DNA from: Cymbomonas tetramitiformis
Lineage: Eukaryota; Chlorophyta; Pyramimonadophyceae; Pyramimonadales; Pyramimonadaceae
NCBI GenBank assembly: GCA_001247695.2
Contig: LGRX02027718.1
Span: 1-64,000 of the forward strand
Direction of reading: 5' to 3'
Length of the DNA: 64,000 nucleotides
The position numbers and the translations under genes were made by a program. The notes under the pieces are model-generated. The model saw only the letters and a program-made list of their open reading frames with translations, had not been told where the DNA came from and did no database searches. Positions 1,777 to 54,099 of the stretch are shown piece after piece; the stretch's first letter is position 1; the number at the start of each line of letters is the position of its first letter.

Positions 1777-2187
1777 TGAACGCTTTCGGCCCCGAAACGC
1801 GCGCCCTGAGCCCTGACCGGGGCGGAAAGCGTTCATTAGCTAATGAACGCTTTCGGCCTCGAAACGCGCGCCCTGAGCCCTGACCGGGGCGGAAAGCGTT
1901 CATTAGCTAATGAACGCTTTCGGCCCCGAAACGCGCGCCCTGCGCCTGGACCGGGGCGGAAAGCGTTCATTAGCTAATGAACGCCTTCCGCCTCGAACCG
2001 CGCGCCCTGAGCCCTGACCGGGGCGGAAGGCGTTCATTAGCTAATGAACGCCTTCCGCCTCGAACCGCGCGCCCTGAGCCCTGACCGGGGCGGAAGGCGT
2101 TCATTAGCTAATGAACGCCTTCCGCCTCGAACCGCGCGCCCTGAGCCCTGACCGGGGCGGAAGGCTTTCATTAGCTAATGAACAGTT
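1681..2187. repeat. 67-bp tandem satellite, eight units, each with a perfect palindrome
   Basis: Palindromes start at 1691, 1758, 1825, 1892, 1959, 2026, 2093 and 2160, an exact 67-bp period. The core is CGTTCATTAGCTAATGAACG. In early units it extends to a 30-bp perfect palindrome (GAAAG...CTTTC arms, e.g. 1691-1720). In later units the flanks change together (GAAGG...CCTTC), so the pairing is kept. Spacers are GC-rich (GAAACGCGCGCCCTGAGCC type). The final unit is degenerate and supplies the ATG at 2178 of the next gene. Confidence 0.97.
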
Positions 2188-5155
2188 TCGTCTTGTCCCA
2201 GGCTGCCAGGAGAACGGATGTGCAGCGTGCTGCCGAACGCGCCCTTCAAGGACCTAGTGGCTCCAGAGCTTTTACTGGAGCGGGCACCAATGTGGATATG
2301 TCTCAAGTGGCCACCCCATCTGAGGCAAGGAAGGCAGCCGAGGTGGCTGCACATGGGTGGCACGCTAAGCTAACAGTGGAGCATGCAGCAAAGATGGATT
2401 TTGAGGAGAAAGCAAAGCTGTGCAGGCAAATCGAGATGGAGCACCGGTGGCCGAACCCGATGGATTTCGACGAGGCGGCGGAGAAAGGGAGTGTGTTTCG
2501 TCTCCCCATTGAATGCCTGTACCACGCGACTGGGTACGAGGCCTGCCGGGATCAAGAGAGGGGCTGTGTGAACGAGATCAAGTCCAGCAGGAAGGAGAAC
2601 CCGTGGGCCCCTTTCAATGCGGGTCTTGTTGCGATCGACGATGTCAAAACCCGTGCCGAATTCTCCCTGAAAAAAGCTCTCGGGGGAGAATACAGAGGCA
2701 AGGTTTTTGGGCACCAGCACTGTTATCAAGCCACCGACGAGTGTCACGAGGAAATCCCGTTGGAGATAGCTTTCCAGTTCTTCGAGAGCAAGATCTACAT
2801 CGGTCTCACGCCTGACATGATTCGGTTCTTAGGCGAGATGCAGAACCAAATCGACCAGAAGACGAAAGGCAAAGACCACACTCAGTTCATGCAAGGGCTT
2901 CGTTCGACCCTTTTCGAAAAGAATGGGGTCGTGTACAAGGTTTACCGAGAAGCGTTGATCTCCGAGTTCGTCGCCGGTGTCCCCGAGGACACCGAAGAGG
3001 GTACCCCTTATCAACCTGGGTATTACGAGGTCGGAGGGCTGGTGCAAAAAATGGCGGAGTTCGAATCAGAGCATGGATTTGCAGTCCCGGATATCGAGAA
3101 ATATCCCAAGGGATTCCAGTACATACATCGAGGATGTGGAGACGTCTGAGCGCGAGGGAGACCTTGAGACCCTCCCTGAGGTAGACGTGACGGTGAAGAC
3201 GCTGGAGGATGACATCAACGCTCACCTCGATCGGGTCACAAGTTGGTACCACGTAATGTCTCACTTGAACCAGTCGATGGAGACGCATGTGAAGGAAGTA
3301 GCGATGTCGAAGCATTCTGTGTTCGGCGGCGTGCAAATCAACCACTACTTCATGCACTGGACAATTGCCAATTTCCGGCCGCAGACGTGGGACCTCTGCG
3401 TTAAGATCGTGGAGGCTTACAGAAGGTTTGACCTGAAGGGCATGAAAAACCCTTTGGCTTCGAAGACCAAAAAGCGCAAGGCCTCATCTTCGCCCGCTAA
3501 GGGACCCGCCAAGAAAGCTGGCAAAAAAGGCACCTCCAACCGACAGGTAAATTACTTTTTACTTTTGCTTCAAACAGTGTTTACCCCCCAAAGCATCCTT
3601 TTCTATATTTTAAGACATTCTAAAAATGTTTTTTTTACTTGCAGATGGAAGACGAGGTGCAACGAGGAGGCGGGGACCACGGAGCGGGCTCGTCTAAAGG
3701 GGGAGGCATTTTGGTGGAAGAAGCTCAGTTTCTCCACAATGCCAAATCCATGGGTATGACGTTCTGGATTAACTTGGGCGGCTTGGCGGGGGAGGCGGAG
3801 TTCGACAAGGTGGACACGTATCTGCGCCTGATTATTCAGAAGGAGTTGTCGGTAAAAGAGGGGGGCCTGATGATAAGCCAGTTCAAGAAGGAACGCATGG
3901 TGCAGAAGCACTTGGTGTCCGCGGCGGGATTGCAAACCTGGGACGCATTCAAGGCCGAGTTCACCCCCTACTGGAGCTCCCAAGAGAAAATCGAGTCGTT
4001 GATCGGCTGCTTACCTTCAACTCAGGGGGGAGCGCGCCGGGGGGGTCTGGGGAAGTTCCGCACGCGATCTTGAATTACGTCGAGAACGCGCGGGCGAATC
4101 TCCAAGAAGCGCAGGCGCCACGCGCGGGGCACATCCTAGGCTTGCAACAGGTCGAGGTGAAAGTCGACATCAAACTCTATCGGGAGGCGCGGACCGAGGG
4201 GCCGGAGCTTAATAAGGTTCCAGGAGAGGCAGGCCTTGAGGACGACGAGCCCACACATGAGACGAACGTGCCGATGTTCCCTCGTTGGAAGATCGTCAAG
4301 GGCAGCATGAGCGATATGAAGGACGTCCCGAGGCTGCCCTTCACGGGGACGATCATCGACTGCAATTACGCCCTTGACAAGGAGAAGACTCCCGCCGCGA
4401 TGACCAAGGAGGAGGTGCAACCGTTCCTGGAGTCTTTCAACGCCAACACCACCGCCCCGGCATGGACTATCGCTATCTTTTGCGGTTTCGTCCAACAAAG
4501 CGATTTCCTGGAGGTGATTGACAATTACTGCTCCGGCCGCGCGGAGCGGTTCTTCTGGCACAAGCAGAACGTGAACATGAACCCCAACAGGACCGTGCGC
4601 TACAATGACGTTGAATGTGGCGTCCTGGGGTACCATGTAAAGAGCGATGCCCAGGGGGAGTCTACTAAAAAGCCGGAGTGGATGTTCAACTTTGATACTG
4701 GAGAAGGTGAACGTGTGAGCCGCGCGTCACTTTTGCGCGGCTTCCCGGTTGTGCACCAGATGTTCAAACGCGACAACAAAGCCGTGAATAACCATCAAAA
4801 ACCCCAAGCTCTGTTGATGGAGCTGATCCAGTGCCACATGCTCGGTGACAATCCGGGCAAGATGGATGAGAACGGCCATCCACTCAACTGGATTCTCGAC
4901 GCTTGCTGCGGCGTCGGCTCGACGTCCATGGCCGCCATGAGGTGTGGTATGAACGCGATCGGCTTCGACCACGACCAGTTCATGGTCAGCTCTGCGCAGC
5001 AACGGCTGATCAATTTCGACAACGAGCCCGATCAGGACGCCGAGACGAAGCCAAAACAGAAGAGCGAACCGACGGCGAAGGGCAAGGAAGCGGCCACTGC
5101 CGAATCTGAGGAAGAAGAGAATGATGAAGATGAGGAAGATGAGAATGATGAATAA
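2178..5155 (+). pseudogene. Multi-domain gene with C-terminal beta-class N4/N6 DNA methyltransferase fold, broken by two frame changes
   Basis: Three open frames follow one another. The first is 2178 to about 3110. The second runs from about 3110 to 3546, then a 98-bp intron. The third runs 3645 to about 4010 and shifts frame again into an ORF ending at 5155. The N-terminal two thirds are unrecognised; a basic Lys/Ala-rich stretch precedes the intron. The last 360 residues carry the layout of beta-class amino-methyltransferases: a motif IV position reading DCNYAL, a hydrophobic strand and 'FFWHKQN', then KPQALLMELI, then the AdoMet motif LDACCGVGST followed by 'AIGFDHDQF'. The normal (D/N/S)PPY is therefore lost, so catalysis is doubtful. 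An acidic Glu/Asp tail closes the protein. The start is ATG 2178, because a TAG lies in frame at 2172. A mobile-element origin is inferred from the satellite and the methyltransferases elsewhere in the window. Confidence 0.6.
3547..3644 (+). other. Spliceosomal intron, 98 bp
   Basis: CAG|GTAAAT opens it at 3547 and a T-rich tract ending in TTACTTGCAG closes it at 3644. Removing it joins phase 0 to phase 0 (Arg-Gln to Met-Glu-Asp). The intron is much more AT-rich than its exons. Confidence 0.85.
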
Positions 5156-5179
5156 AATAGTAGGATTTGTCGACCGCCC

Positions 5180-5198
5180 TGACTGATAGTATCAGTCA
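5180..5198. other. Short perfect hairpin 25 bp after the methyltransferase-like gene
   Basis: TGACTGATA-G-TATCAGTCA is a perfect 9-bp stem with a one-base centre. It lies just after the stop codon at 5155. It may be a 3'-end element or chance. Confidence 0.5.
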
Positions 5199-6835: not shown

Positions 6836-6874
6836 TCACCTGAATGAAGAGAAGAGAAAGGGTGGAAATGATAG

Positions 6875-9956: not shown

Positions 9957-12900
9957 ATGACTTGCACAGTTAGCGGCATTTTCATATATCCCGTCAAGTC
10001 TTGCGGGGGCATCGAGCTGAAGGAGGCTTTCATAACACCAACGGGTTCGTTCCTAAGGGAAGCTCTGCGCTAAAAAACACACACACGCCGAATTTCGCCT
10101 GCGTGAAATGGCTTGTCCCTGTTCTCGTTTCGACTTCTGAACACGCGACTTATCGCCACGCCGACTTTCTCAGTTCGCCTATTCTTGGAGAGAGCTTTCA
10201 GAAATTTTGCATGTCATATTTTATATCTCATATCATAGATCAGATATATAACTGATCTATTATGTGAGATAAGATAATAACGTAGGCTTCAGCTGAATTA
10301 CGGGGCTTGTATGCAGGCTTCACATTTGATCGGACTTGGCAAGTTGTGGACAGCCGAGGATTTTTTCTCACTCAGGTTTTCCAACTTTGCCCTTAGTCTG
10401 AAGCGCAACGTGCTTCCTTATTGATTCTGACGCGTTCCTTGTGTTCACCAGTGTCAATCAAACTAGGGGTCCAAATTTAGCACGATGATGGGCGCTCAGC
10501 CAGCTTTGCTTGCTGCGCAGCGCACAGTGCCGCAGCTGGCCCTGGTGGACACCGGCCTGCCAATAGAAGCGTTGCAACCAGGGTGGGGCCGGCTATCCCC
10601 TGAAGCGGCACTGGTGCTGAACGCCCCAAAAATGGAAGCCCTGCACGTGGCGCTCAACCCCCGCGCGAGACGTTCTAAGGTTGACGTGTGCGTCTGGGAG
10701 TGGGACGGTGAGGTACGACTTCAACCAGAAACCACTGTGAACAACGCGGCATACTACGCGATGCCTCGATGCCAATAGAGTGAAGACTAACAAGCCCAAC
10801 AACTGAATCACGTGTCCCAACACACCTGTTTTGGAAGCTGAATCAATACGCTCATTCCTGCGCAAGGGTTTCAGCTGTGTGATGCGCGTCTGCCCGGGCT
10901 GGTCCAGGCAGAAGACGAGGGCGAGGATGCAGCGAGATGGTTCACCCAGTACCTCGGCATGGACTGCCGACTCGTACAGTGGTGTGGCAAGCGACCTTGC
11001 GACCCTGCCTTCGCCCGTGAGCATCAGACCGCCTTCTCCGACGGCTTCCCTTTTCTGCTCATTTCTGATCCCACACTTGAAGGTGCGCGGCAGCCATTAC
11101 CGTCCTCGCAAACCGCCTGCCCCTCACACCTTCTCACATCGATTTCCGATAAGCGCCTCGTACATGATTGGGACCTCGTCATCCGCCCTCAACGAGCGCC
11201 CAAGCAATCATGTAAATTTAGCTGTCAAACGAGCCCTATAAAGTACGCCTACTGGAGTGCACCACCGGGAAGCACCACGAAACTCAGATGTGCGGGTGCA
11301 CAGCGGCATCTTCATGCGTCTTCCAAATACAATACAGAGAGAAATTTGCAGCAGCGGGTCCCCCGTTCAAGTATACGAGGTCGAAGCCACCTCACAAGTG
11401 TTAGGGCTCCCTACTTCCGGTCCAAACTTGTAGGTTAAAGTGTCGAAGGCAACACGTCTCGAATTCGGTTCGTTGATTCGGCTACTTGTTGCCTGGGGTG
11501 GGACGCCAGGCCTAAACCGGGAAACGGGAGAGGAATACTCTATGGCTCGCTTTCGCCCAAACATCGTCGTGCAGGGATGTGCTCCGAATGCAGAAGACAC
11601 CTGGCAGACTTTCTCCATCGGTTCCGGAATCGACGACAGCCAAGTGGGTTTGGGACAAATTTGCTTCCGCGCTGGATAACGGTCTTGCTTTGCTGTTCCC
11701 CACCTGAGTGCTTTGTGTTCCGCACTTAAGGGCGAGGACGACACCTTCTTATGGCCTGCGCCCCTTCTGTACACAGCGTTAAAACGGCTTTTACTATTGC
11801 TGGTACTTTTGGGAAGAAATCTTTAGGCACTTTCAATCTGCACACATGTGAGAACAGCCAGTCGAGGTATCCGTGGAAGAAGTTCTTTTGCCAGTCCGTG
11901 TTTTTGGCAGCGCAGCTAAATGTGGAACTCAATGCGGACTTCAGGAGTCTGCTTAGCTGAGAGCGGGGAGTACGTTGTGCGGCAGACGGAGGGGACAACC
12001 GCAGCAAACTCCGTGGTCTTTGAGGTGGTCAAGCCCTGTTCTAGATGTAAGGTCAGTGCTGGAACAAACTCTGTGCGGGCTGAATCTGCTGCTTGCAACA
12101 TATCCTGCAACCTTGAATTTAGACTGTGTGTTGCGATGGACAAGCTGTGTTCTAGGTGTAGGATGAGGAGAGCGGCATGCCAGCGATCGCCTTTTTTCAG
12201 GCACCCGGAACAAAGCGCTGTAAGCGATTCCAATATAGTGCATAGGCCAACGGTACTTGCAGATGACACATTCTTGCTCGCCTTGCACCATGCTTAGAGA
12301 GTTGCAAGCAAAATGGTCATGCTGTGCATGGGATATTTGGGCTTGCAGATGGTCCCTCTCTTTAGCAAAACCGGAGCAGCATCTCTGGTAAACTTGTGCT
12401 GGGCAGCCCAAAGGAGGGATAAGAGGTTTGGGAGTGTGCGGCGTGCAGATAGTCACCATAGACCAGAGCACCGCAGTAGCCAGCACAAGCGCTGAACCTC
12501 TGGTCACCATTTGTAAAGTACTCCTGTCTCGCTTGCTTTCTTGCGTTTCATATCCTCTTGTCCTTTTCTACTATCGTTCGATGCACTGTGGCCATACGTC
12601 GAGGATGGCCACGCAACATGGTTAGCGAGGTTAGCTCCTCACAACGAGTTTTCAACTTGCTAAATTTCATATGGTCGATGTGTTACTCTCACTTTGCAGT
12701 ACCGTAGCGGGAGAGCCTTGGGATTCACACAACGTGATTGGCGGAATCAAGGTTTCTTCGGATGGAACTTGGTTTCCCTCACCGACCCGTCCCCCATTTC
12801 CGGTAGGTCTTTCACGCTGAATTATTTCTTCTCTCTACACTTTTGGCGCTCATTGTCTAGAAACAAAGAGTCCAGTTTAAGCAAGCATAGTTGTGCGACG

Positions 12901-13833: not shown

Positions 13834-14625
13834 ATACTCGTGAAGGTATCGACTGATTAGACTGATTGATTAATTCAGTCAGTGACATGAGCGACAAAAA
13901 CCAAATCAGTTCATGTCACCGACTGAATACGATGTCACCAACCGAATACCAATTAAATCAGAAAACTCTCTCACCTCGCCCATCACATATATAAATAATA
14001 ATTTATTGCGGTGGGGGGCGACGTATATTAATATTACCGCCAGAAGTTAAGGATATATAATTATATATATGATTTATGGTATATATAATTTATATAACAT
14101 ATTTGCTTGAAATTTCTTGGCGCTTCGCGATAAAGAGGGGGGTGGGGAGGTGGGGGGTTCTTGGGGCAGTGGGGCAGCGGGGAAGTTGCTCGTGGGGGTT
14201 CACGAGGGTGGAAGGCTGGGGGAGGGGGGGGGTATTGGGAGGGGGGAGGGGGGGAGTCACCCGCTGCCCCATTCCCTCCCGGTTCCCCTCCCCCCAATAC
14301 CCCCCCCCCACCTCCCACCCCCTCCTTATCGCGAAGCGCCAAGAAATTTCAAGCAAATATGTTATATAAATTATATATACCATAAATCATATATATAATT
14401 ATATATCCTTAACTTCTGGCGGTAATATTAATATACGTCGCCCCCCACCGCAATAAATTATTATTTATATATGTGATGGGCGAGGTGAGAGAGTTTTCTG
14501 AATTAATTGGTATTCGGTTGGTGACATCGTATTCAGTCGGTGACATGAACTGATTTGGTTTTTGTCGCTCATGTCACTGACTGAATTAATCAATCAGTCT
14601 AATCAGTCGATACCTTCACGAGTAT
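13834..14625. mobile_element. 792-bp non-autonomous hairpin element, Mutator-like, 9-bp target duplication
   Basis: The element begins ATACTCGTGAAGG and ends CCTTCACGAGTAT. It is flanked by the 9-bp direct repeat GGGTTTTCG at 13825-13833 and 14626-14634. Arms pair symmetrically about 14229.5 with hardly any mismatch for at least 300 bp (for example GGCGCTTCGC at 14119 pairs with GCGAAGCGCC at 14331). The loop is G-rich left and C-rich right, so almost the whole element can fold. No transposase is encoded. Long TIRs with a 9-bp duplication are the hallmark of Mutator-like elements. Taking out the element plus one duplication copy joins the host LINE endonuclease frame, which confirms the borders. 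Confidence 0.93.
13838..14110. repeat. Left terminal inverted repeat of the hairpin element
   Basis: This arm matches the reverse complement of about 14349-14621 with very few differences (one is A versus T in the CCAATTAA tract near 13950). Inside it are short internal direct motifs: TCAGTCAGTGACATG, TTCATGTCACCGACTGAATAC and GATGTCACCAACCGAATACC. These look like subterminal binding-site repeats. Confidence 0.85.
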
Positions 14626-17605: not shown

Positions 17606-18290
17606 TCAGCCATGCGTATGGATGCGTGATATGCTTTTCTGATCGAACAGGTGCTCGAAGAGTTGGCGAAGCAATCCAGAGGGTAGAGGGTATACAGCAG
17701 CGGAGACTCCCGCTCCTTGTTGCCCAGGATGAGGCCCCAGTTGAGCAGTTTCCGGATGTGATCCCAGAGTCTGTTGGTGAAGACAAGGAGCATCCATCGT
17801 ACAGTACCGTAGGTCCACCGGAGGAGGCGACTGCGTCCAGATGCAAGTAGGTTTGCGGTAGCCAGTGCCATACATACAGTAAGAGCAATACAACGGAGTA
17901 GGTAACCGGCGAACTACGGGTCGAAATCGCAGCGCAAAGGGAAACCTGCCCATCGGATTTTCCATAAACCAATGCTTGGGTTTGAGAAAGTCGAAATTTT
18001 GGAGCGTACGGCGTACACAGGCATCAGCCTGTCGCAGTTGTCGCACCCCAGTGGTCTTAGCCTGACTGTATTCTGTGCACGGTGGGCTAGCCCAGATGAC
18101 GTCAAAGTAACCAGGAGCGTAACGCTTGAAGTCCCAGTCTTGTACCTTCTCAGCGTACTGTAGGTAGGTTGCCAGCGAGGATCATGATCTACGGTGACCA
18201 CGGTGCTCTTCGGATAACATGACAGGAAACTTCTCTCCACACTACCTGTACCACTGAAAAGTACTAGTAGTCGCAACTCGCGTGTCGAGA
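17606..18290 (-). CDS. C5-cytosine DNA methyltransferase-like domain of the gypsy element
   Basis: Motifs appear in family order on the minus strand. 'LVLFSGTGSVERSF' is AdoMet motif I (about 18265) and 'VVTVDHDPRW' is motif II. A one-base shift near 18170 follows. Then 'FDVIWASPPCTEYSQAKTTG' is motif IV with the catalytic Pro-Cys (about 18055-18115), 'WFMENPMGRF' is the ENP motif VI, and 'YCSYCMYGTGYRKPTCIWTQ' resembles the motif VIII region of phage-type enzymes. The first part lies in the integrase ORF (17914-19932), the rest in the frame 17606-18046. Retrotransposon-borne cytosine methyltransferases are known from a few algal and dinoflagellate LTR elements; this appears to be another. 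Catalytic Cys and Glu are present, so activity is possible if the frame is intact in other copies. Confidence 0.85.
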
Positions 18291-19932
18291 CCACAGAGTC
18301 CAGAAGAGCCAGATGCGTCACAAAGGCGTCAGAGGAGCGACAATATTGTTCCCAAGGTAGGCAGTTGTCCAGAGAAGTGGGTTCCCCTTCATCAGAGGTG
18401 TCCAGGAAGGTTAGAGCTCTGGCGCGTTCCCGCCTTTGCTTCCGCTGCATTCTGACCTCCTGTAAGGCTTTTTCGCGGGCTTGTCCTTCTCGGGATAGTC
18501 TCAGTTGTTCAAACTCTGTGAGCTGTTCGAGTTCACCCCCGTAGTTCAACGACTCACGAGTCTTCCAGGAGTCATGAGCATTAGAGTACCCAGTCCAGCG
18601 AACCAGAAATTCTTCTACTTCCTTGCCTCCTCTCGTAGGTTTCACTCTTCGAGCCAGAATCTTAGACACATGTGTCTGGGATTGTCCATCCACGAGAACC
18701 TTGGCAGGAGTGGGTATTTGCCGACGCAGCGCAAAAGCTTCATCCGCGGTGCGGTATTCCTTGAGGCGATGCTGCGCAAAGACGTCGTGGATACGCCATT
18801 TAGGGGGCAACTTGAGCCGATAAGCCACCGGGGCGCCTCTGTCAATTTCGGGTAGCTCTCGTTGCTGGTCACTGAAGAACCTCTCGGTGATGGGTAAGGG
18901 CCCGTGCCAGCGAGGTCCCAGCTTCCTGAAGGATTCGCGGTTCATGATATTTTCCGTGAGATGCTTGGCATCTACCCAGACCAAGTCTCCCAACTGAAAG
19001 GATTTGGCGGTGTGACGCTGGTCAAACTGATGTCGCTGGCGTTGCTGCGCCAGTTCCAGCTTAGCGCGGGCGTCCTCCAGTTGAGCCGCGAATTTGCTAG
19101 CCATCTCGTGTGCGTTACCTTCTCCACCCTTACGCTTGGAGTGTTGTCCTGCAGCCGCTTGCAGGAACAGGTCCAGCTGCGACATAGGCGAGTGCCCCAA
19201 AACCAACTCAAACGGGGTAAAGCCAGTTACATCGCTCCGCGTATCGTTTATGGCGAACTCTACGTTAGCACACCACAAGTCCCAGTCCTCCGGATTGCTG
19301 CCTACGAAAGACCGTAGCATGTCTTCTACCACGCGGTTGGTATGTTCAGCTTGTCCGTCCGAACGAGGGTTGTAAGGCGTGGTGGAGGTCACTTTGGTTC
19401 CCATAAGTCTCATCAACTCCTTCCACATAGCATCCTGAAAACGAGGGTCCCGGTCGGAGACAATCTTCATAGGAGTGCCATGTAGTTTCCAGATGTGGTC
19501 GAAGTAGATTCGAGCTATAACCTCAGCGGAGCTGTCCTGGAAGTTCAATGGGATAATGTGAACCATTTTGCTGAGCTTACAAGTGAAAGTAGCAAAGGCA
19601 TCGTGATTCCGCGCCGTGACTGGGAGTCCAGTGACAAAGTCCACGCTGACCACGCTTGCCATAGTCGCGTAGGAATAGTGTGGGGGTTCAGCAATCCATC
19701 CGGGTAGGAATTTCTCGGTCGCACCGCTTGACAGATAGCGCAAGATGAAACCCAGCGTCCCACATCTTCCGCTGCCCCTTTCCACCAGAAGCGTCGCAGT
19801 ACTCGTTCCAGAGTTTTGTCCCTGCCCGCGTGTCCAGCTGAAACAGATCCATGCGCTTCTTGCAGCACTACCTCGCGAAGCGGTGAATCTTCTCCCAGTA
19901 CCAACTGATAGCGTCCAGCGCTCACCCTCCAC
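17914..19932 (-). CDS. Gypsy integrase core, chromodomain and start of C5-methyltransferase
   Basis: The 672-codon frame contains the integrase DDE core: the first Asp in 'VDFVTGLPV' (about 19635), the second in 'IVSDRDPRF' (about 19440), and the Glu in 'DGQAEHTNRVVEDM' (about 19340). A GPY-like region follows ('LGPRWHGPLPITERF'). Next is a chromodomain at about 18540-18665 ('VSKILARRVKPTRGGKEVEE', 'FLVRWTGYSNAHDSWKTRES'), which in chromoviruses steers integration toward modified histones. A coiled, Arg-rich linker leads to motif I of the methyltransferase. The first 60 or so codons are out of frame with the element; the real protein enters this frame from the ORF at 19545-20345. Confidence 0.88.
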   Translation of the reverse strand: MEGERWTLSVGTGRRFTASRGSAARSAWICFSWTRGQGQNSGTSTATLLVERGSGRCGTLGFILRYLSSGATEKFLPGWIAEPPHYSYATMASVVSVDFVTGLPVTARNHDAFATFTCKLSKMVHIIPLNFQDSSAEVIARIYFDHIWKLHGTPMKIVSDRDPRFQDAMWKELMRLMGTKVTSTTPYNPRSDGQAEHTNRVVEDMLRSFVGSNPEDWDLWCANVEFAINDTRSDVTGFTPFELVLGHSPMSQLDLFLQAAAGQHSKRKGGEGNAHEMASKFAAQLEDARAKLELAQQRQRHQFDQRHTAKSFQLGDLVWVDAKHLTENIMNRESFRKLGPRWHGPLPITERFFSDQQRELPEIDRGAPVAYRLKLPPKWRIHDVFAQHRLKEYRTADEAFALRRQIPTPAKVLVDGQSQTHVSKILARRVKPTRGGKEVEEFLVRWTGYSNAHDSWKTRESLNYGGELEQLTEFEQLRLSREGQAREKALQEVRMQRKQRRERARALTFLDTSDEGEPTSLDNCLPWEQYCRSSDAFVTHLALLDSVVSTRELRLLVLFSGTGSVERSFLSCYPKSTVVTVDHDPRWQPTYSTLRRYKTGTSSVTLLVTLTSSGLAHRAQNTVRLRPLGCDNCDRLMPVYAVRSKISTFSNPSIGLWKIRWAGFPLRCDFDP

Positions 19933-20345
19933 AACACATCTCCCACCACGCAGAAGTCACGAGTGCGTTGATGCGGAGCTTCTTGGATTTCCTTCCTCAA
20001 AGTCTGTAGTGGACCAGGTCGCCCATATTCCGCTTGCAGCGCTTTGAGAAATTGGCCTCCTGATATCTGCTGATGCAGGTCTCGAACGCTGGCCGCTTCT
20101 CCAGTACGCACGATAGGAGGAGGTGAACTCGTCTTCCTTTCCCGCTTGACACGCTGTCGAGCTGGCGGGGCGTACACCACTAACAGGGGCCAAGGAAGAT
20201 CCAGAAGGGCTCCATCCGGAGCAGCGAACATCTGCACAGGTTCTCCTTGAGCGTCATGGGTGGGAATAATGTACTCCACTCTCATTCCCGCAGATCTGAA
20301 CAACTGCCGCCACTGGGGCATGCGAGACTGAAAATCAGGAAGCAC
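19545..20345 (-). CDS. End of Dam-like domain plus integrase H2C2 zinc finger
   Basis: The first part ('VLPDFQSRMPQWRQLF', 'MFAAPDGALLDLPWPLLVVY') continues the Dam-like methyltransferase that starts in the neighbouring frame. Later 'GHAGRDKTLERVLRRFWWKG' and 'SSCAICQAVRP' form the H-H-C-C zinc-binding domain at the head of gypsy integrases (about 19710-19820). The integrase core is reached after a frame change near 19700. Its overlap with both flanking ORFs shows these are pieces of one polyprotein. Confidence 0.82.
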   Translation of the reverse strand: MLPDFQSRMPQWRQLFRSAGMRVEYIIPTHDAQGEPVQMFAAPDGALLDLPWPLLVVYAPPARQRVKRERKTSSPPPIVRTGEAASVRDLHQQISGGQFLKALQAEYGRPGPLQTLRKEIQEAPHQRTRDFCVVGDVLWRVSAGRYQLVLGEDSPLREVVLQEAHGSVSAGHAGRDKTLERVLRRFWWKGAAEDVGRWVSSCAICQAVRPRNSYPDGLLNPHTIPTRLWQAWSAWTLSLDSQSRRGITMPLLLSLVSSAKWFTLSH

Positions 20346-21160
20346 AAGAGAGCTGAAGTATTCTCAGGGTCCAGACGCCATTCTTCCACATATTTCCTCA
20401 GTACGGCCTCAATGGTCAAATGGTTGGAGGAGAAGGGAGGATTGCACCAGACGTTCAACCCTCGCCAGTTTTCCTTCAAGCAGTCCGTCCAGTAGCGATT
20501 AACCTGACGATTCTTTCCTCCCAAGTCGCAACAGGCGTCCACCTCGAAAGGTCCATATTCTTGACTCAAGAATTCGAACATGTCCGCACGGAACTTCCAG
20601 TCCTGTCGGTCGCTGGACTCCAGGAGTCTGGTTGAGGCCTCGCTGCACTTCGGCTTCGCTGAGTTATCAGCAGGGGTCTTCCTGGGAGAAGGAGGCGAGG
20701 AAGCTGTCAGTTTGCCAGAGCGCGTCTGAACTGCCAGGGTTGTTTCCTCGTACCCGGTTTCGGCCAGCTGCAAGGTATGTAGTGCGTCCAGCCAGAGTTG
20801 AGGGGAGTCCATCCAGGTGAGAGCCCCACTGTACGCGAGGACTGGTTCAGGATCTTTGGTCTTGGCGTTGTTGGACTTGCGTTCCTTCAACTTGTTGGGA
20901 TCTACCACTCCCAGTGGAGCGCGTCCTTGGCGAGACTCTTTACCAGCTGCAGGTCTGAACTTGCTGACGGTGTCCGCGGCCGAGGGAGGTCGCTGCGGTT
21001 TTCCAGTAACCGGGTGCACAAAGCCAGCTTCTACCAGTCCTTCTCTCGCGGAGATTTCCTTGTAGTCGGGTCGCCTGGACAGAGCGTCTGGAACCCAGAG
21101 TAGCGCCCAGGGATGTACTCCATCTCGGGTACCCCTACCTCCACTAGATCCATGTACCAT
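20282..21160 (-). CDS. RNase H end and Dam-like (N6-adenine) methyltransferase domain of the gypsy element
   Basis: 'DALSRRPDYKE' is the usual tail of gypsy RNase H, reached from the RT ORF by a one-base shift near 21090. After a linker of about 130 residues comes a phage-Dam-like domain (PF05869 type): 'MFEFLSQEYGPFEVDACCD', then 'VWCNPPFSSNHLTIEAVLRK' with the catalytic NPPF at about 20440. It continues in the frame 19545-20345. The family transfers methyl groups to adenine N6. Finding it between RNase H and integrase rather than at the end of the polyprotein is unusual. Confidence 0.8.
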   Translation of the reverse strand: MVHGSSGGRGTRDGVHPWALLWVPDALSRRPDYKEISAREGLVEAGFVHPVTGKPQRPPSAADTVSKFRPAAGKESRQGRAPLGVVDPNKLKERKSNNAKTKDPEPVLAYSGALTWMDSPQLWLDALHTLQLAETGYEETTLAVQTRSGKLTASSPPSPRKTPADNSAKPKCSEASTRLLESSDRQDWKFRADMFEFLSQEYGPFEVDACCDLGGKNRQVNRYWTDCLKENWRGLNVWCNPPFSSNHLTIEAVLRKYVEEWRLDPENTSALLCFLIFSLACPSGGSCSDLRE

Positions 21161-23256: not shown

Positions 23257-23734
23257 GCAGTCAAGCGCAATAGCCTATGATCTCTTCAAGCCGCGCTGGA
23301 GCGTCACACCTCCGTGCGCACACACTCGTGTAGATGTTGACCGCGGGTTGGGCTTTACGCACTACCTACCTTGGGAGGAAGGTCCGCACTTCGCATCGCG
23401 CCGAACTGCGTGGACCAATTCCTGCGATGGCAACGCGCTAGTCAGTTGCGGTCCTTTCACCCATCTCGCATCGCCCATCGGCAACGTTCGTATACAATCA
23501 GCCGCGGCACTCGTCCGTTACAAGGAGTAAGGACATCGGCACGGGGCATGTAGCACGGCTAGGTGGACGGCCTTGCACTATAAATTGCATAATCGATGAA
23601 AATGGCATTTAGAAGTCGCAAGAAGTTTCAGGAAGTACTTAGTTGTTAAAAGAAATCATTCAAAGGCAATATTTCACATTTTTGATCATCGCGGTGGCCA
23701 CCAGGCTGCTAACGGGTCGCAGAAGGGCTGCGGT

Positions 23735-24662
23735 ACAGACATTGCATATCTTGCGGGCGCGTGAGATATGTGAGTGATACGGGGAAGTTACTAGAGTTGG
23801 TGAGAATTATTTGGAGGTCATCCCTAGGCAGTGTGAAGCGGAATTTCACATCGGGTCACATTCGCGGGGTGCTGGGGAGCTAATTTCGTCTGTAAACTGA
23901 CTGCAAAACAAAAAATGCATGTCTCGTGGGCGCGTGAGATATGCAAATGATACGGTGAAGTTATTAGAAGTTGTGAGAAGTATCTAGAAGTTATTACTAG
24001 GCATCGAGAAGTGATATTTCACATCGGGTCACATTCGCGGGGCGTTGGGGAGCTAATTTCGTCTGTAAACTGACTGCAAAACAGAAAATGCATGTCTCGT
24101 GGGCGCGTGAGATATGCAAATGATACGGTGAAGTTATTAGAATTTATGAGAAGTATCTAGAAGTTATTACTAGGCATCGAGAAGTGATATTTCACATCGG
24201 GTCACATTCGCGGGGCGTTGGGGAGCTAATTTCGTCTGTAAACTGACTGCAAAACAGAAAATGCATGTCTCGTGGGCGCGTGAGATATGCAAATGATACG
24301 GTGAAGTTATTAGAAGTTGTGAGAAGTATCTAGAAGTTATTACTAGGCATCGAGAAGTGATATTTCACATCGGGTCACATTCACGGGGCGTTGGGGGGCT
24401 AATTTCGTCTGTAAACTGACTGCAACAACATAAAATGCATGTCTCGTGGGCGCGTGAGATGTTGCACGTGATACGGAGAAGTTATTAGAAGTTGTGAGAA
24501 GTATTTAGAGGTCATACCTAGGCTATGAGAAGCGAAATTCACATCGGGTCATATTCACGGGGTGCTGGGGAGCTAATTTCGTCTGTAAAAAGGGCTGCAA
24601 AGCAGAAATTGCATATATTGCGGGTGCGTGAGATGTAGCACGTGATACGGAGAAGTTATTCG
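23735..24662. repeat. 173-bp satellite, about 5.3 copies
   Basis: The marker ACATTCGCGG recurs at 23858, 24031, 24204 and 24377 (ACATTCACGG in the last), with a diverged copy at 24551. That gives spacings of 173, 173, 173 and 174 bp. Each unit carries GGGCGCGTGAGATATGC, GAAGTTATTAGAAGT and TAATTTCGTCTGTAAACTGA. Inner copies are nearly identical and the outer two are diverged, as in arrays grown by unequal exchange. The period is close to nucleosome size. Confidence 0.96.
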
Positions 24663-24749
24663 ATGTATGTACAAGTCATAACAATATACACCGCAACATG
24701 CCCGTATCTACAATATATACAATATATACATCTACATAACACTAGAATC

Positions 24750-30742: not shown

Positions 30743-33700
30743 GTGCTACTGTTTTCTCTGTACATGTGTGCATTTGGTGTGCCGTGTAGGCCGTGTATGA
30801 TCTGGTCACTCCAATATTCGAATTCTGTTGTGTTGTATAATGTGATTAAGGTTTCCGAGATGCATGTAGCATAGGCAATGTCTGTTACGCTGTCAATCCC
30901 CAGTCCTCCTAGTGCGGCCGGTGTCCAAACTAATTGATGGTTTGTGTCTATGGGACAGTTTAAATATCTCAGGGCGAAGTTTGCTATGGTGCCATCTATT
31001 TCTTTTGCTACATTATTTGTTTCCGTGCAGATAATCGATGTAACTTTCAAAGGGTATGCCATTCTTGGTACAACAACCGCATTGATTATGTAGCGGAGCT
31101 GGTTCAAGTTCAAGGTTTGTGTTTGAACAGACAGTAAGCTTTGGGTGAGCTTATCCATAAGCATCTGCTTTTGGTGTTCCCATCCGCCATCTAGCGCAAA
31201 CCAAACCCCTAGATATCGGTTTGCTTCAGTTCTGTTGCTATATTCAAGATATGTAGGGGTCTTGGGTGGAAGCCATTCAGACCATATGTTGGGCCCTTCC
31301 TCTCCCTCTTCGACTTTCAGCATACCTCCGGACATGAGTTTCTTTTCCAATCCGGTATTCCTTTCATCTGCTTTCCCCCTCTGTCTAATGGATTTCCTGT
31401 GAGAGTATTTCGATTTTTTAGCATTAATGGGAATCCCTATGAACCTCATGAACTCATTGATCACCCCGAGCATGTCCTGTACTTCCTCTCTTGATTTCCC
31501 TATCAAGATAATATCATCACAGAAGAATCTGGCAAAGATGTTGGGCGGTGAGTTCATGTTCAACCATTTCCTGTTCTTCTGGGGTGATGTTGCTCCCGGG
31601 TTTCTGGTGGCATCTCTCGGTTTCTCTAGAGCATACCCGTAGGTCTGTTTCATGGAGTTCTTACCGTTTGCCCTTTCTGCCAGCCAGATGGCTAGAATGT
31701 CCATAATTGCCACAAACCTGAGGGGACTTAGGACGTCTCCTTGAGGCACCCCGCATTCGAGCATCCATTCATCTGTCATGCCTTCAGATGTGAGGACTGA
31801 TCGTGATGCTTCGGATGTGATGTCCGAAATGATTGTGATAATGTTTTCGGGCAGTCCTATTTTCTCAAGTGCTAGCTTGCTCATCCAAAATTCTGCTCGG
31901 TCAAAGGCTTGTTTAAGGTCCAAGTAGACAACATGCAGTTCCTTGTCGAATCTGTTAGCGTCGGAAATAACTTCATTTAGGACTTGCAATGAATCTTCAA
32001 TGTTTTTATTGGGTAGGAAAGCATCTTGAATTGGGAAGAGGACTGGATGTTTGGATAAGGCCTTCTTTATTCTGTTTGCAATGATGGAATTAAACAACTT
32101 CATGCCTGTTTCCAGCATGGTGAGTGGCCTGGAATTATCTGATGTGCATGGTTTGTTTGGATCTTTGGGGATTGGCTGAATGAAGCCTGCTTTAGCTAAT
32201 TTTGGAAAGGAGCCTGTTCTCAAGATGTTGTTAAACATTTCGAGTATGAGTTCCTGGAGGTTTTGGGGTCCCTGTATCCATTGTGCATAATGCATTCCTG
32301 ATGGGCCTGGGGCTGTGGATACTCCACATGATCCATAAACTGCCTCCAGCTCCTTCATGAGTATGGGTTCTGCTAGCTGCTCAATGACATACTGGGGTAG
32401 TCTGGGGCTGTTCTTTAAGATTGATCTCAGCCATGGCGGTAGGTGCTCGGGTGCTTCGGGTTTTGTGGGAAAAAGTTTGTTTTCTTTATATTCCTTTAAG
32501 ATGGCCTGCTTCCTTTCATTTGCTGTGGGCGGTACCTCACCTTTGTCATCATATTCTGGTGCTGCACCCTTTTCCATCCCTTTCTTGTTTCCTAAGGCTC
32601 TATCCAAGAAGGTTGAAACCTTCTTTGCAAACAAATATTGCATCTCTTCCTTCTCCCGGAGCTTCCAATATCTTATGTCCTTGAGTCTGCTCTCTTGGAA
32701 TGCCTTTGTGACTGTTGGCAGGTTCGTCTCAAGTCTGTTACCCCATGCCTCAGCCGTTTCCTGTGGCTTCCTGCGAAGACTGTCACAAGGAATGGTGCTG
32801 ATGAGGCATTCTGTTGCTTCCAGGTCCTTTTCATTTTCTGCCATTCCCAGCATCCGGTGTGCTTTTCTCAATGACTGAAGCCATTTGTATAGATAGTTTG
32901 ATGTGGCTGATGGGACCGGCCTTTTGTGCATATTTTTCCCCCTTGTTCCAAATGCAGCACACGCCGCTATGTTTGCTGATTCATGGACGAAGTCCCAGGT
33001 GTGGTCCGTATCTTCTTCACAAGACCTACAGCTATCTATATTCTCTTTACTGCCCTCCGATTCTTTGTTTGTGTCTACTAGTTTTTGAAGTCTTTCTGTG
33101 TAGGCTTTCCACCCGGTGGCATATTTGAAGTTGTATGCTTTGGTTTTGTCAAGTGCTAATAGGGGTTTGCCACAATGACTCCAGTGCTCTGCTTGCAGGT
33201 TCTGATGCATGCAGATGTCCCATATGTGCCCTTCTTCATGCTCCTTGGGTCCTTCGAGTTTTAAGACTTCAGTGTTCCCCAAGTGAAAGTGTGTTTTGAG
33301 GTATTTTAGGACATCTTTTTTCCCATAATTGATTGGGAATTTCAAGCTCCAAAGATTACCAATTTTTGTGTACCCATGCTGTGTCACGCCCTCTGGCATG
33401 CCATTGCCCCTAGACCGGATGTGTGCGGAATTCCAGGGTGAGTTCATATGTATCCACCATTCTTTGGTTTTGTTATGCCACTTTATGCTACCTTTTGTGC
33501 TCGTCAGCTTCCCCTTCCATGTGCTTGGGTTTTCTTTTAGTTTGTCTCCGTAAACATCCTCCTTTTTCATATTGTAGTCTGTGGTGTCACCTAAGACAGT
33601 GTTTATTGCTTGTGCTGCATTGTTTTGTTCGATGCTTGCATTTGCAAAATGCTTTATGCTGTATCCATTTTCCCCCAGTAATCTAGCAATCGCAGCCTTA

Positions 33701-36700
33701 GTAAGCTTTTTAGAACCTCTTACTGTCTGTATGTGCTCCAGTCTTACTGGGAAGCCAGGGTACTTGGCATGGGTGGTGTCGTTTGCTCCACTCATGCGTG
33801 GTTCCTCCGTATATGTATGTTTCAGTTTTTCGAGGTGTATCTGCTCTCCTCTGATGTCAATCTGAGCCCAGACTATTCCGTGGTCTGAAACTATGTATGG
33901 GTTAATTTCGAGCCAGCCAGCAGCAGCTGTTCTATCTTCCATTCCTTTGTTTGCCATTATATGAGTTAGTTTTGCTTTTGAGCTGTTGTTCACAACCCTT
34001 GTGAATATCTCATTGCATTCGGGGTGCATATGTGTGACGAGTTCTGTTAGTGTTGTCCTGTCATCATTGAAATAACTTAAGAGGTGTTTGTTCTTTGTCT
34101 GGTGGTCTTTATATGACATCTGCTGACCTTTTGTTATCCTTTGGCTCTGGGTCAGTGTGCAGTTCTTGTCTCCTATTTCTATGTGCGCCTTGTTTCTGTT
34201 GTCGCCTGATTTGGCTGCCCAATCCTTAAGTGTTTTGTAGAAGTCCTCTTGTTCCTCTTTGAGGCTGGCATCGTTCATGTACCCGCTTGCCACCGAAAAT
34301 GAGAAACCCTTTATGCCCGTAAACCGAATCATAACTGACCTTTTTTGCACCCCGTCCACATAGGTTGCATTGGGTGTCAGCGGGATATCCTTGGGATTCC
34401 ATACTATGAGGGACCCTATACTAGCCCTTTCATCCGTGTGTGAAATTCTAAAGCCCAGACCTTTCTGAGACATCAAGGTCTTGACCATTGGCAAACTTGT
34501 GTTTGAGATCTTGGTCTCAGAGACACATATGATGTGTGCTTTTCTGTCTAGCACCAGGTTGCAGATGGTCTCTAGTTTTATCATACTGTCCTGGTCCTCC
34601 TTTGTGTGTCTCAGGCCTCTCATGTTCATTCCCATTACTATAATATGTTCCTTTCTCCCTTGGGCTCTCTGTAGTTCCTGCAGCCGCATGTTTTCCGCCT
34701 CATTCCGTGAGTGCTTTGCCTTTTGCTTAATGCATCTTCCATCCGTTCCATATAGGTTTTTGTGGAAAAAGATGTTTTCCGTCCGCTCACAATTTTGGAT
34801 CTTCCTCCTCAGTTTTTTCCCTGCCTGGTGCCTTAGGCCTGTGGTTTTAGGAGTGTTCCTTTTGCTTTGAACATTGGAAGCCATAACTTTTCCTGCTCTT
34901 ATGCCTCCAACCACCTCTTGTTTCCCCCAGAATTCTCTGTTTTGCGCTATTTCGTCAGAGGTTATATTCCCATATCTGAGCTGCTCCCTGATAATGGCTA
35001 CCGCTCCCCTGTTGTTTAGCTTCTCATTTCTGGTGAATTTCCCGGTACCGTGGTGGTACTTGATGTTGGAGGTGGTCATGCTGTTTATGATGTCTCTTTC
35101 TAACTGGTGCTCTCCTGCATATCTGAGATTTTGAAGGATTTCCTGAATTTTGATTGCTGTGTGGAGGACAAGGAGACCTTTGTTTTGAGCATCGATCTCA
35201 CATCTGAGGCCTAAGTGTTTATATACTGGTGTCTCGTTGTCATGACTTTCCTTTTCCATTTTTGTGAAGGGTTTGATTAGGAGGACGGTGTTCTTATGTT
35301 TCAGGTGTATTGCCAATGTCCATTCATGACTTTGGTGAAGAATATAGGTGTGGTGTTTTGTCTGGGGAAGTTTGTTGGTGTTATTATTGTATTCCTTTTG
35401 GCTCCCGTTTATCATTTCATAAAGGATATGCTCGTTGTTGGTACAAGTGAAGCCTAGCTTCAGCTTTATGCACAGTGTCTCAATGTTGGTTATGGAGATG
35501 ACTCCTTTTCTACTGTATACAGGGTTGTATTTTGAGATATCGCTATTGATGCTCCCTCTTGCATCCTTGGGTTGAGTAATCCTATCTTGAATTACTTCTT
35601 GTAAGTCCTGGATGTGTAATGTAGCCTCAGAACTGTGGTGCTCCCCTTCAGTGTTTCCTTCTTTTAAATAGGTGAAGAATGGTATGTGCCCGCTCCTATC
35701 ACACCATTGCCTCCATTTCTCCGCTGTTCTAATAACCCATATCCCACAAGTGTGATTATCCAGTTGTTGTCTGAAAGTTGATACCTCTACATTCCAACTC
35801 TTCCCTTTCATGGTTTTATGATGGGTATGCAACCAAGCGGAGAGCGCCCCTTCAAGTTTGCTTTGTGTTTCGGTTGCTGTCATTGCTCCAAGGGAATCAT
35901 AGATATAGGCTTCTATATGTTGTTCTGTTGTAATTCGGAGTGTTATGAGTCTCCAATGTTCACCGTTGCTTACCCCAAAGTGGGTCCTCAGATGTTTGCC
36001 CAATGCTTTTCTAATGAGGTGTAAGAAGCTTGATTCCCCGGTTTCCAGTTTTGAAAGGAGCTCATCATAGCCTATGGGGGGGATCGAGCTTTTGTCCTGT
36101 AGTCTGAGAGCCTCGTCGAGCTGTTCAGAGTCAATCCCTTCTCCGTTGTATACTGCTTCTGCTTCAAGCCTGTTATTGTTTAAGGTTGATGACTCAGTGG
36201 GCTGTCCCCCTTTTCCCCTTATGACCTCTCTCCTAGTAAATGGCAATTTGGTCATATTGCTTCCAGGGTGTATAGTATCTAACATCTTAGTAGGTGATTT
36301 TGTTGAGCTCGATTCCAGTTGGCTGGGATTCCCTGTTTGTCCATGGTTACTGGGTTTGTCTACTTCTGTGTGGATGTGTGGGTGTTGTTTCTTTTCTGAT
36401 AGTGTCTTACAAGGGTGGGAATCGATTAGTCGAGGAATTATGATTAATCGATTTAATAGTGTATACCCCTATCGAATCGATTTGCGATTATGACAAATTA
36501 GGAATCGAATAGGTTTGCGATTATGACAAATTAGGAATCGAATAGGTTTCTGTTCAGGACTAATTACAAATCAAATAGGTATGGCGCTGATGGCAAATTA
36601 CAATCGAATCGGTTCCCACCCTGGACAAATTACTAATCACATAGGTTGTGTGAAATTTGGTACAGGAATCAAATCGGTTATGGTGGGTTATATACACCAA

Positions 36701-45403: not shown

Positions 45404-45439
45404 TAGAACAACCGAGCAGTCGAGTGACGGCAGGCAACC

Positions 45440-45625: not shown

Positions 45626-45877
45626 GAACCGTGACAAAAAGTGTGATTGATAAAAGTAGAGATAACATAAATACCTAACGGGTGTTTTCCGTCTACTGGT
45701 GACGGTCACTCAGCCTACTATAGGAAGTGACATGTGACAGTTTCGGGTGTCACAGTGTCACATCCAGCACCCTCCCTCTCGCCCCGGTGATATCAAATCC
45801 TCACCCCCACCCTGAGCTGGTCCCACAGAGGGTCGCGACTACTCTGATTGGGCTCGAGTATCACAAAATTAGTTAAT

Positions 45878-45905
45878 GTCATGTCATGTCATGTCATGTC
45901 ATGTC
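45878..45905. repeat. (GTCAT)5.6 microsatellite
   Basis: Five and a half uninterrupted GTCAT units, the same unit and orientation as the longer tract at 26219-26288. Confidence 0.97.
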
Positions 45906-50339: not shown

Positions 50340-50373
50340 GTGCACTCCTTGCCCTCCACTCGTGCTCCTTGCT

Positions 50374-50790
50374 TTTTTTGGAATTCATCAGGGGCAATCT
50401 TGCGAAAAGCACTATTTCTTCATCTTTGAAAAACTCAATACCATTTCGCCTGGCGAAATGCCTTGAGAGTTTGCCAAACTATCGCGTAACGGCTGAGATG
50501 ATTTGGCAATGTTTGGCGAATGCCCGTGAACCAGGAATAGTTTTCACTAAGAGTTCCTACGAACTATTTCAGCACCCGGGCCCGTCGCATAGGGACGGTC
50601 CCAACACAGTCATAAGAGTTTGACGATGACTGCACTGCATTTGTATCCTTGCTGTTGTTTTTTGTCCTACGGTTCTGATCTGCTAAATTGGGTTTTATAC
50701 CATGAAAAAAGGGTTTCTCTTTTTCAAAAATCCTTCTTAGCCAAAGACAGTCACTGCATACCTTACATTGTTTTTGTCCACTGCTTAAGC
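50374..50790 (-). repeat. Outer element LTR, left (3') copy
   Basis: It shares with 63612-64000 long near-identical runs, including AATTCATCAGGGGCAAT, GGCGAAATGCCTTGAGAG, GGACGGTCCCAACACAGTCA, TACGGTTCTGATCTGCTAAA and GACAGTCACTGCATACCTTA. Outer borders cannot be fixed because the other copy is cut by the window edge. Confidence 0.88.
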
Positions 50791-51657: not shown

Positions 51658-51843
51658 TCAGAAGGTCTCCTGGGCCAAGTTCAGCGTCTCCTCGTCCCCG
51701 TCATCGTACACCACAACGGCCTTGCTCTCTTTGGTGTAGTGCTGAACCACGCCTGGGTAGTAGGCGTCATCATCCTCCCAGAACATTTGATCTGAGTACC
51801 GGCAGGCACACCCGTCGTTGTGGCACATGTTGTTGTGGCACAT
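51658..51843 (-). pseudogene. Tudor-like barrel fragment beside the DIRS remnant
   Basis: 'MFWEDDDAYYPGVVQHYTKE' followed by 'AVVVYDDGDEETLNL' has the strand pattern of Tudor/Agenet-like domains (W-x-D-D-x-x-Y-Y-x-G-x-V ... Y-D-D-G-D-x-E). It lies just downstream, on the same strand, of the methyltransferase remnant. Such barrels read methylated peptides or act as structural modules. It may be part of the same element or an unrelated fragment. Confidence 0.6.
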
Positions 51844-51869
51844 GTCGCTGCCCTCTGGCCTTCCTCAGG

Positions 51870-52540
51870 AATGGCGTAGCTCTTACTGGGAGGAGGGGAT
51901 GCTGAATATGATGATGTCACACTTGACGGGCCCGAGCACTCGGACCCTTCCAGCCTGCTCGGAGTCGGACAAAGGTCCAGTCGCCTCGGCACGTGACCAT
52001 ACACATCTGTGTTGCCAGAGCTTCCAGCTCCAGGACTTGTCCTGGCCAGTAAGGGGCAAACGACTGTTACAGTTGATCTCCCCGCGCCAGCTGTATGCCA
52101 GCGAGTCCACTCCTTCGCAGTATGGGTTTCTCCACGCTGCAAAATATCTCGGCAGCTGCACCGAGATCTTCGAAGCGAAGCGATGGACTGTGTATGGCCG
52201 CCATTGCTTGTCCATCCACTCGAAGCAGGGGCGGTTCAATGCCAGTCCTTGCTACGTGAAAGCTTGTCCACCCACACGTCCGCTTCGCTGTGGATGTACC
52301 TCGTGCAGTTCGATGTCGCGAAGGTCCTGCAGGCCCCAATAGAGAGCATCGCTTCCACTGCCTGGTTGTCGCAGTAAAGGTGTACGACCCTGTCTTCCAG
52401 CTCCCGTAGAAACGCCTGAACCGTCTTGTACACTGCCTCGAGCTCGATGTGAGTGATGTGCAGGCTCCTCAAGTCATCTGGCCAGAAACCTCTCGCCGGC
52501 TGCTGCAGATTCAGCACGCCTCCCCAGGCCTGCGAGGAAG
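51870..52540 (-). pseudogene. DIRS-like RNase H and Dam-like methyltransferase remnant
   Basis: RNase H: 'TIHTDASSQAWGGVLN', 'ARGFWPDDLRSLHITHIELE', 'VVHLYCDNQAVEAML' and 'EADVWVDKLSR' (52236-52590) match DIRS/Ngaro-type enzymes, with the Asp, Glu and Asp residues present. After a frame change comes 'WRPYTVHRFASKISVQLPRY' and 'GVDSLAYSWRGE', the usual opening of the Dam-like domain of DIRS elements (52070-52200), ending in 'RVLGPVKCDIIIFSIP' (about 51890). The NPPW-type catalytic motif is not intact: 'GEINCNSRLPL' stands in its place. RT lies upstream in DIRS elements and is not seen here. Confidence 0.75.
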
Positions 52541-54082: not shown

Positions 54083-54099
54083 TGGCTCAATATTGGACC

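Follow-up and report, generated by a model that had tools for sequence, protein, structure and literature searches.

Dam-like methyltransferase domains in the polyproteins of several retrotransposon superfamilies of the alga Cymbomonas tetramitiformis

In this work, we analysed a 64-kb stretch of Cymbomonas tetramitiformis DNA (the window; contig C18602 of the 851.7-Mb assembly that we searched) and the retrotransposons in it, and find that elements of several superfamilies in this alga encode, within the polyprotein that serves their replication, a domain resembling the Dam N6-adenine methyltransferases of phages, to which one Ty3/gypsy lineage adds a short phage-type C5-cytosine methyltransferase (C5) domain. 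Judged from their sequences, the domains are present and, in many copies, in frame with reverse transcriptase (RT) and integrase (IN), and the putative catalytic motifs are kept in most copies examined. They are under purifying selection, with a constraint about equal to or above that of their neighbours. We lean, by a little, towards the view that these enzymes would act on the element's own DNA. The features of the window that carry the argument are the following.

17606 to 23274, minus strand: decayed pol of a Ty3/gypsy chromovirus, in several frames, with RT, RNase H, Dam, integrase (H2C2 and core), chromodomain and C5 (Pfam).
20142 to 20620, minus strand: the gypsy element's Dam-like N6-adenine methyltransferase domain, divided between two frames by a frameshift near 20340, NPPF at 20443 (PF05869, phrog_111, hidden Markov models (HMMs)).
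17606 to 18265, minus strand: short phage-type C5-cytosine methyltransferase domain past the chromodomain, divided between two frames, the upper of which has FSGTGS, with approximate outer boundaries (phrog_757, phrog_363, PF00145).
55492 to 62320, minus strand: decayed Ty1/copia element, with direct repeats resembling long terminal repeats (LTRs) at 55492-55684 and 62127-62320, 92.3% alike (RVT_2, repeats).
58837 to 59324, minus strand: Dam-like domain of the copia element, in two frames, motif NLPF (PF05869, HMMs).
27299 to 36468, minus strand: element of long interspersed nuclear element (LINE) type, with an RT frame and a downstream frame (RVT_1 3.2e-23, weak RNase_H 0.077).
27908 to 28525, minus strand: probable divergent Dam-like domain towards the C-terminus of the LINE protein, with NPPF at 28225 (hhalign, tblastn, ratio of nonsynonymous to synonymous substitution rates (dN/dS)).

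Copies fetched from the genome are labelled L001 onward and polyproteins from the protein search P00xx; the curated cut-offs are 28.1 bits for PF05869, 22 for PF00145, 26.7 for PF01555 and 32.6 for rve. The gypsy element is a Ty3/gypsy chromovirus by its domain order, as RT and RNase H are followed by an H2C2 and rve integrase and a chromodomain both in the window and in L018 (window: RVT_1 1.3e-32, RT_RNaseH 4.9e-28, H2C2 1.8e-19, Chromo 1.6e-7, and rve 4.1e-6, which is below its own cut-off here and in L018). Between RNase H and integrase lies the Dam-like domain, which the initial annotation had placed at 20.4 kb and which is matched by PF05869 (E 1.5e-10, 41.4 bits), by phrog_111 (5.6e-13) and by an HMM built from six phage Dams (1.5e-16), a second fragment matching the gypsy HMM at 1.5e-30. 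The C5 domain claimed for the same element at 18.0 kb, and here found at about 17.6-18.3 kb, is likewise borne out by phrog_757 (3.3e-14, with a second match at 8.7e-13) and phrog_363 (4e-6), though PF00145 reaches only 15.9 bits (E 0.0089), under its cut-off, and 13.7 bits in L018. The window copy is frameshifted and both domains are split across two frames; L018 runs through protease (AP), RT, RNase H (RH), Dam, IN, chromodomain and C5 in one open frame. Its Dam, at 46.4 bits, is above the PF05869 cut-off, and its C5, 56-67% identical to that of the window, carries FSGTGS, PPCTQYS and ENP. We take NPPY/F to be the Dam catalytic motif, and FSGxG, PPC and EN to be motifs of C5 methyltransferases.

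Among 20 other gypsy copies, chosen for long frames from the 150 places of the Dam search, Dam is in 20 of the 20, a figure biased by that choice, and C5 in 19 (in one piece in 17 of these; L019 lacks it). A protein search with the gypsy Dam region returned 23 long polyproteins of gypsy type, 53-90% identical to the query region; every one with a named organism is from Cymbomonas, and the rest are ena, jgi and ncbi entries. CNPPY/F is intact in 19 of the 23, and the domain is retained across polyproteins whose RT differs by about 40%. C5 is present in 14, several of the others ending before the C5 position; among the 14, PPCT[QE]YS is found in 12 and ENP in 11, and the match stops ahead of PPC in P0030 and P0039.

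Searches of PDB sequences gave no methyltransferase below E 0.07, and we took the best matches of the gypsy Dam there, complex I subunits at 0.016, to be chance. In scans of viral contigs, neither the gypsy Dam nor the gypsy C5 had a close relative. A self-comparison of nine pieces (eight gypsy, one copia) did not reveal the gypsy LTRs; the matches listed included internal repeats in the gypsy pieces. Long runs of a short repeat of His-Ala-Thr type also occur in the gypsy polyprotein and vary among copies; in L018 they precede the protease, and in L007 they separate RNase H from Dam. A tandem array with a unit of 173 bases (23728-24666) lies beside the window element.

Outside the window there is another gypsy-type family, in which a different C5 follows RNase H without a gap in the domain order (L039-L041, on contigs C1237, C163 and C23118; PF00145 1.1e-10 in L039); the likeness of this C5 to Dnmt3 was seen by eye only. 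Places on the PF00145 list have frames of up to 2398 amino acids (aa). Near-full-length C5 methyltransferases in single frames also occur on contigs C23365, C169, C25294, C20845, C8 and C6 (PF00145 down to 5.7e-65) and may be host genes, viral genes or contaminants.

The Dam of the copia element, at 58.8-59.3 kb, had been missed by the initial annotation. The element is decayed in the window (RVT_2 9.3e-7, under its own cut-off, with weak rve and zinc-knuckle traces), and its Dam reaches 21.1 bits with PF05869 (2.7e-4), below the cut-off in this decayed copy, together with 2.3e-51 and 5.2e-31 for a copia-Dam HMM and 3.3e-5 for the phage-Dam HMM; it shares 71% identity with another of the genome's copia Dams. 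Its motif is NLPF, not the NPPF that is present in 10 of the 11 copia copies fetched, L051 having NPSF. L042 has, in a single frame of 1984 aa in the fetched piece, Pol_BBD (protease), Dam, IN (rve) and RT (RVT_2), with the integrase before RVT_2 as in Ty1/copia elements; its rve scores 31.9 bits against a cut-off of 32.6, and its Dam is above the cut-off (PF05869 2.9e-8, 34.0 bits). Ten further short copia pieces each contain the Dam, the frame in L049 diverging from the others past the motif. A genome search with the Dam-bearing copia frame matched 150 of 150 scored places among 5696 candidates, and the 149 outside the window are 55-62% identical, with frames of up to 2360 aa. With the copia Dam as query, no phage record was found at E 0.01. 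A direct repeat of 394 bases, 90% alike, at 50376-50769 and 63612-64000 (13.2 kb apart), flanks the copia element and a DIRS-like remnant described below; its right copy reaches the window end.

The third carrier has RVT_1 without an integrase and no long direct repeat around it, which assigns it to the LINEs. Among 6331 candidates for its downstream frame, 40 places were scored, window included, and all 40 matched; the 39 others are 96-99% identical, 35 of the 40 are free of internal stops and single frames reach 3320 aa elsewhere. The C-terminal domain of this protein, called Dam-like at 28.2 kb by the initial annotation, is probably a divergent Dam. It carries NPPF in 7 of 7 copies, and hhalign pairs it with the alignment of retroelement Dams at 91% (E 1.1e-6) over 98 columns, the half with NPPF; the figure is 84.6% once phages are added and 3% with phage Dams alone. 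By tblastn, a copia Dam finds the LINE stretch at 1.0e-5, and when an HMM built from the LINE domain was run on 44 Dam sequences, two copia Dams matched at 5e-4. In the one relative found, P0007, the Dam-like region is 66% identical and the whole protein 44%, so that conservation is higher in this region than in the remainder. On the other side, Pfam (nothing at E 1, PF05869 included) and PHROG give the domain no match; the retroelement-Dam HMM reaches only E 0.12, a weaker match than that of an unrelated frame at 10842-11435 (0.068) and close to the best in the reversed window (0.38); and the structure prediction, with a predicted local distance difference test (pLDDT) score of 37.2, is too poor to use. 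In the frame at 30487-36468, an endonuclease-like stretch ahead of the RT and a stretch near the start like a ULP1-type cysteine protease were seen by eye, and Pfam matches neither.

Elsewhere in the genome, elements that we typed as DIRS by eye (L001-L006 and L033-L035) have a clear Dam after RNase H, with PF05869 at 1.8e-13 in L035, which has the order RH-Dam.

These families are very abundant. The genome searches gave 7257 candidates for PF05869, 6331 for the LINE C-terminal protein, 6837 for PF00145 and 5696 for the copia frame in 851.7 Mb, or about 0.4-0.55 of each set per 64 kb; candidates are loose first-look places that partly overlap, and a subset was scored. The genome itself is 850 Mb-1.2 Gb and for the most part repeats (PMC5741210). 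Because the elements are so common, several methyltransferase-bearing ones per 64 kb need no special explanation, and we rejected the idea that the five domains initially annotated in the window form a special cluster. PF05869 is above its cut-off in 150 of the 150 places scored among its candidates; as far as the comparison reached, neither a lack of significant HMM matches nor neutral evolution, outcomes that the initial annotation had named as speaking against its proposal, was found.

The purifying selection is seen in each of the three carriers. Across the 20 gypsy copies, the ratio of nonsynonymous to synonymous polymorphism (pN/pS) is 0.09 for C5, 0.11 for the integrase, 0.18 for the protease, 0.18 for the RT- and RNase H-containing block ahead of Dam, and 0.06 for the chromodomain, and 0.72 and 0.42 for the linkers. 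Between the window gypsy element and L018 synonymous sites are saturated, and the nonsynonymous rate (dN) is 0.24 for Dam, 0.24 and 0.54 for the two parts of the RT-RNase H block, 0.20 for the integrase, 0.38 for C5 and 0.45 for the chromodomain. In the LINE (7 copies), dN/dS is 0.091 for the Dam-like domain, 0.079 for RNase H and 0.143 for the region between them; in copia (12 copies), it is 0.120 for Dam and 0.354 for the protease plus linker.

As to where the Dam came from, we built a tree of 44 sequences of our choice (25 gypsy-type, 8 DIRS-type, 5 copia and 6 phage), leaving out L004, L029, L030, L032, the window copies and the rest of the gypsy and copia copies fetched. In it the Dams of gypsy, DIRS and copia elements fall together against the six phage Dams with support of 99/99, and within them the groups have 85/80 (gypsy), 100/100 (copia) and 77/34 (DIRS), with a warning of long branches from the tool; most of the retroelement sequences begin D-R-x-D-W-K. 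Phage relatives are distant, at 31-34% identity for Dam in the 12 records listed out of 624 and 26-35% for C5 of the phrog_757 type in 11 of 11 records; all phage relatives listed, including 14 of 363 further Dam records, lie at 26-36%, and the remainder below 60%. This pattern suggests that one Dam family has been exchanged among gypsy, DIRS and copia elements; it does not prove the exchange, because the tree has only six phage sequences, no bacterial or other eukaryotic ones, and flagged long branches. Separate capture by each superfamily of its own Dam from phages or bacteria, an alternative that concerns the origin only, is conceivable but on balance doubtful: in its favour are the strong divergence of the copia Dam, which had no phage match at E 0.01, and the weak support for the DIRS group, yet the joint grouping and the common start of most sequences speak for a shared source. 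The initial annotation had held that unrelated element types each gained a methyltransferase. That unrelated types carry one stands for gypsy, copia and DIRS-type elements, with the LINE probable, but "each gained" may mislead, because the three Dams group apart from those of phages and one domain passed between elements fits equally well.

In gypsy and copia the Dam lies just ahead of the integrase, and the gypsy C5 past the chromodomain. Because Dam adjoins integrase, and by analogy with the proposal published for DIRS-Dnmt3 (PMC5890265), we infer that the enzymes may accompany the pre-integration complex and methylate newly made complementary DNA (cDNA), writing N6-methyladenine (6mA) and, in gypsy, 5-methylcytosine (5mC) as well. 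Host-like marks on a new copy might protect it from nucleases, keep it from being recognised as foreign or direct it to a chromatin state; for the LINE domain, the substrate would be DNA synthesised at the target. We also put forward, with clear reservation, an extended form in which a single gypsy polyprotein writes both 6mA and 5mC on its own cDNA, the Dam module has passed among at least three, perhaps four, superfamilies in one host, and host surveillance reads both marks and so selects self-marking elements.

Several observations weigh against action on the element's own DNA, beyond those given for the LINE domain. The gypsy C5 is short and below the PF00145 cut-off. The pN/pS of 0.01 for the gypsy Dam is, like its presence in 20 of 20 copies, biased because the copies were drawn from the Dam search with long frames preferred. 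P0037, P0038, P0040 and P0041 keep the domain with CSPPH or CSLSS in place of the motif; as this holds for 4 of 23 gypsy-type polyproteins, catalysis is not always needed. In the published work, elements without the enzyme expanded similarly, and a LINE-borne C5 enzyme gave no DNA methylation in yeast, RNA being suggested as its substrate (PMC5890265). The motif-less polyproteins and the yeast result favour a reading in which the domains bind S-adenosylmethionine (SAM) and nucleic acid with a product other than methylated element DNA, whether by RNA methylation or as a nucleic-acid-binding or structural part of the polyprotein. We regard that reading as unlikely, although it deserves attention: a pure scaffold would not need the motif that 19 of 23 gypsy-type polyproteins and 10 of 11 copia copies keep, and Dam families act on DNA in bacteria and phages. 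The DIRS-Dnmt3 of Symbiodinium is, moreover, capable of de novo CG methylation (PMC5890265).

A defensive role, protecting either the host cell or the element from DNA viruses or from competing elements, has been proposed for Dam- and C5-bearing retrotransposons (PMC6338049), and the Cymbomonas genome has many endogenous viral elements, which retroelements adjoin or sit inside (PMC10675990); nothing in the sequence links any of the domains to viral targets, however, and fusion in Pol beside the integrase points to the element's own DNA, so that we give defence little credence. That the domains are functionless passengers, captured by chance and amplified with successful elements, would suit the frameshifted gypsy and copia copies of the window and the NLPF of the latter, but we find it very improbable, as it is disfavoured by the low ratios (dN/dS near 0.1 for the LINE and copia domains, pN/pS of 0.09 for the gypsy C5) and the Dam persists across gypsy-type polyproteins with strongly differing RTs.

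Two further features of the window had been counted among its methyltransferases.

51886 to 52499, minus strand: DIRS-like remnant, with an RNase H-like stretch and a possible methyltransferase remnant, unconfirmed (by eye).
2577 to 5086, plus strand: copy, either decayed or interrupted by introns, of a gene that is multicopy in Cymbomonas and whose C-terminal domain resembles beta-class N4/N6 methyltransferases, motif IV DCNY (PF01555, phrog_67).

By eye the stretch at 52.1 kb resembles what we take to be the DIRS methyltransferase block, but the searches did not confirm the Dam-like remnant annotated there. Pfam matched neither the plus-strand frame at 51791-52339 nor the minus-strand frame at 51681-52232, PHROG did not match the minus-strand frame at 51886-52248, the DIRS-type Dams of the genome did not match the remnant, and the phage-Dam HMM gave E 0.15 only. 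A tandem array with a unit of 297 bases lies beside it (52406-54190).

For the second, annotated at 4.1-5.1 kb, the beta-class fold has support from sequence (phrog_67 4.1e-11; PF01555 2.1e-5, 25 bits, just below cut-off), but the gene's membership in a mobile element is unsupported. The gene is 97% identical to CYMTET_42516 of C. tetramitiformis over the 261-residue region searched, and the protein search gave 16 relatives, mostly named Cymbomonas and none with another organism in its name, which marks the host as this marine green alga or a very close relative. DPPY, which we take to be the type of the beta-class catalytic motif, is absent in 15 of the 15 readable sequences of these 16, where DCNY, DGNY, DCVY or DSMY stands instead, and the SAM-binding motif is kept in most; the gene probably encodes no active N4/N6 enzyme. 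The predicted structure of the domain (pLDDT 33.6) is too poor to use. Beside the gene is a tandem array with a unit of 67 bases (1602-2257), and at 13834-14625 there is a long inverted repeat with arms of about 324 bases, 98.8% alike, and a short spacer, perhaps a young foldback element.

Dam in DIRS elements, and C5 in LINE, DIRS and gypsy elements, are already known. De Mendoza (2018) described C5 enzymes encoded by Symbiodinium LINE and DIRS elements and by Klebsormidium gypsy elements, with Dam in DIRS cited (PMC5890265), and a 2019 opinion names DIRS as carriers of Dam and both gypsy and DIRS as carriers of C5 (PMC6338049). For Cymbomonas, a 2015 paper noted very high-copy scaffolds with homology to chromodomain, RNase H and cytosine methyltransferase (PMC5741210), whereas the 2023 long-read paper notes chromoviruses and its main text lacks the word methyltransferase (PMC10675990); in the available text of a 2025 survey of adenine methylation, neither Cymbomonas nor DIRS occurs (PMC12695648). 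A literature search that left subscription papers, preprints and Repbase outside gave no clear description of a gypsy, copia or LINE element with a Dam, or of a polyprotein that combines Dam with C5. The picture of rare exceptions, with a Dam in DIRS elements and a C5 in a small number of elements, would thereby give way to a genome-wide pattern in one alga, where elements with different integration machinery share the same kind of DNA-modifying module and one element has two chemistries. If the enzymes are active, the alga would be a natural test bed for transposon self-marking and for bacterial-type N6-methyladenine in a eukaryotic nucleus.

Among known systems, the DIRS elements with a Dam-like domain are closest in that Dam follows RNase H, and DIRS-type elements so built are present in this genome, but the carriers in the window are gypsy, copia and probably LINE, not tyrosine-recombinase elements. 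KnitGypsy-Dnmt3 of Klebsormidium likewise has a Ty3/gypsy Pol with a C5 under purifying selection, and resembles the arrangement of the second Cymbomonas gypsy-type family; the window gypsy element differs in having a short phage-type C5 past the chromodomain and a Dam in the same polyprotein (PMC5890265). SymbioLINE-Dnmt and SymbioDIRS-Dnmt3 of Symbiodinium are also methyltransferases encoded by LINE and DIRS elements, but they are C5 enzymes and, in the LINE, mostly a separate upstream open reading frame, whereas the Cymbomonas LINE domain would be Dam-like, C-terminal and part of one long frame (PMC5890265). Phage Dam (PF05869; phrog_111) and phage C5 (phrog_757), finally, are homologous in sequence to the domains described here, but only distantly, and in Cymbomonas the domains are fused into retrotransposon polyproteins.

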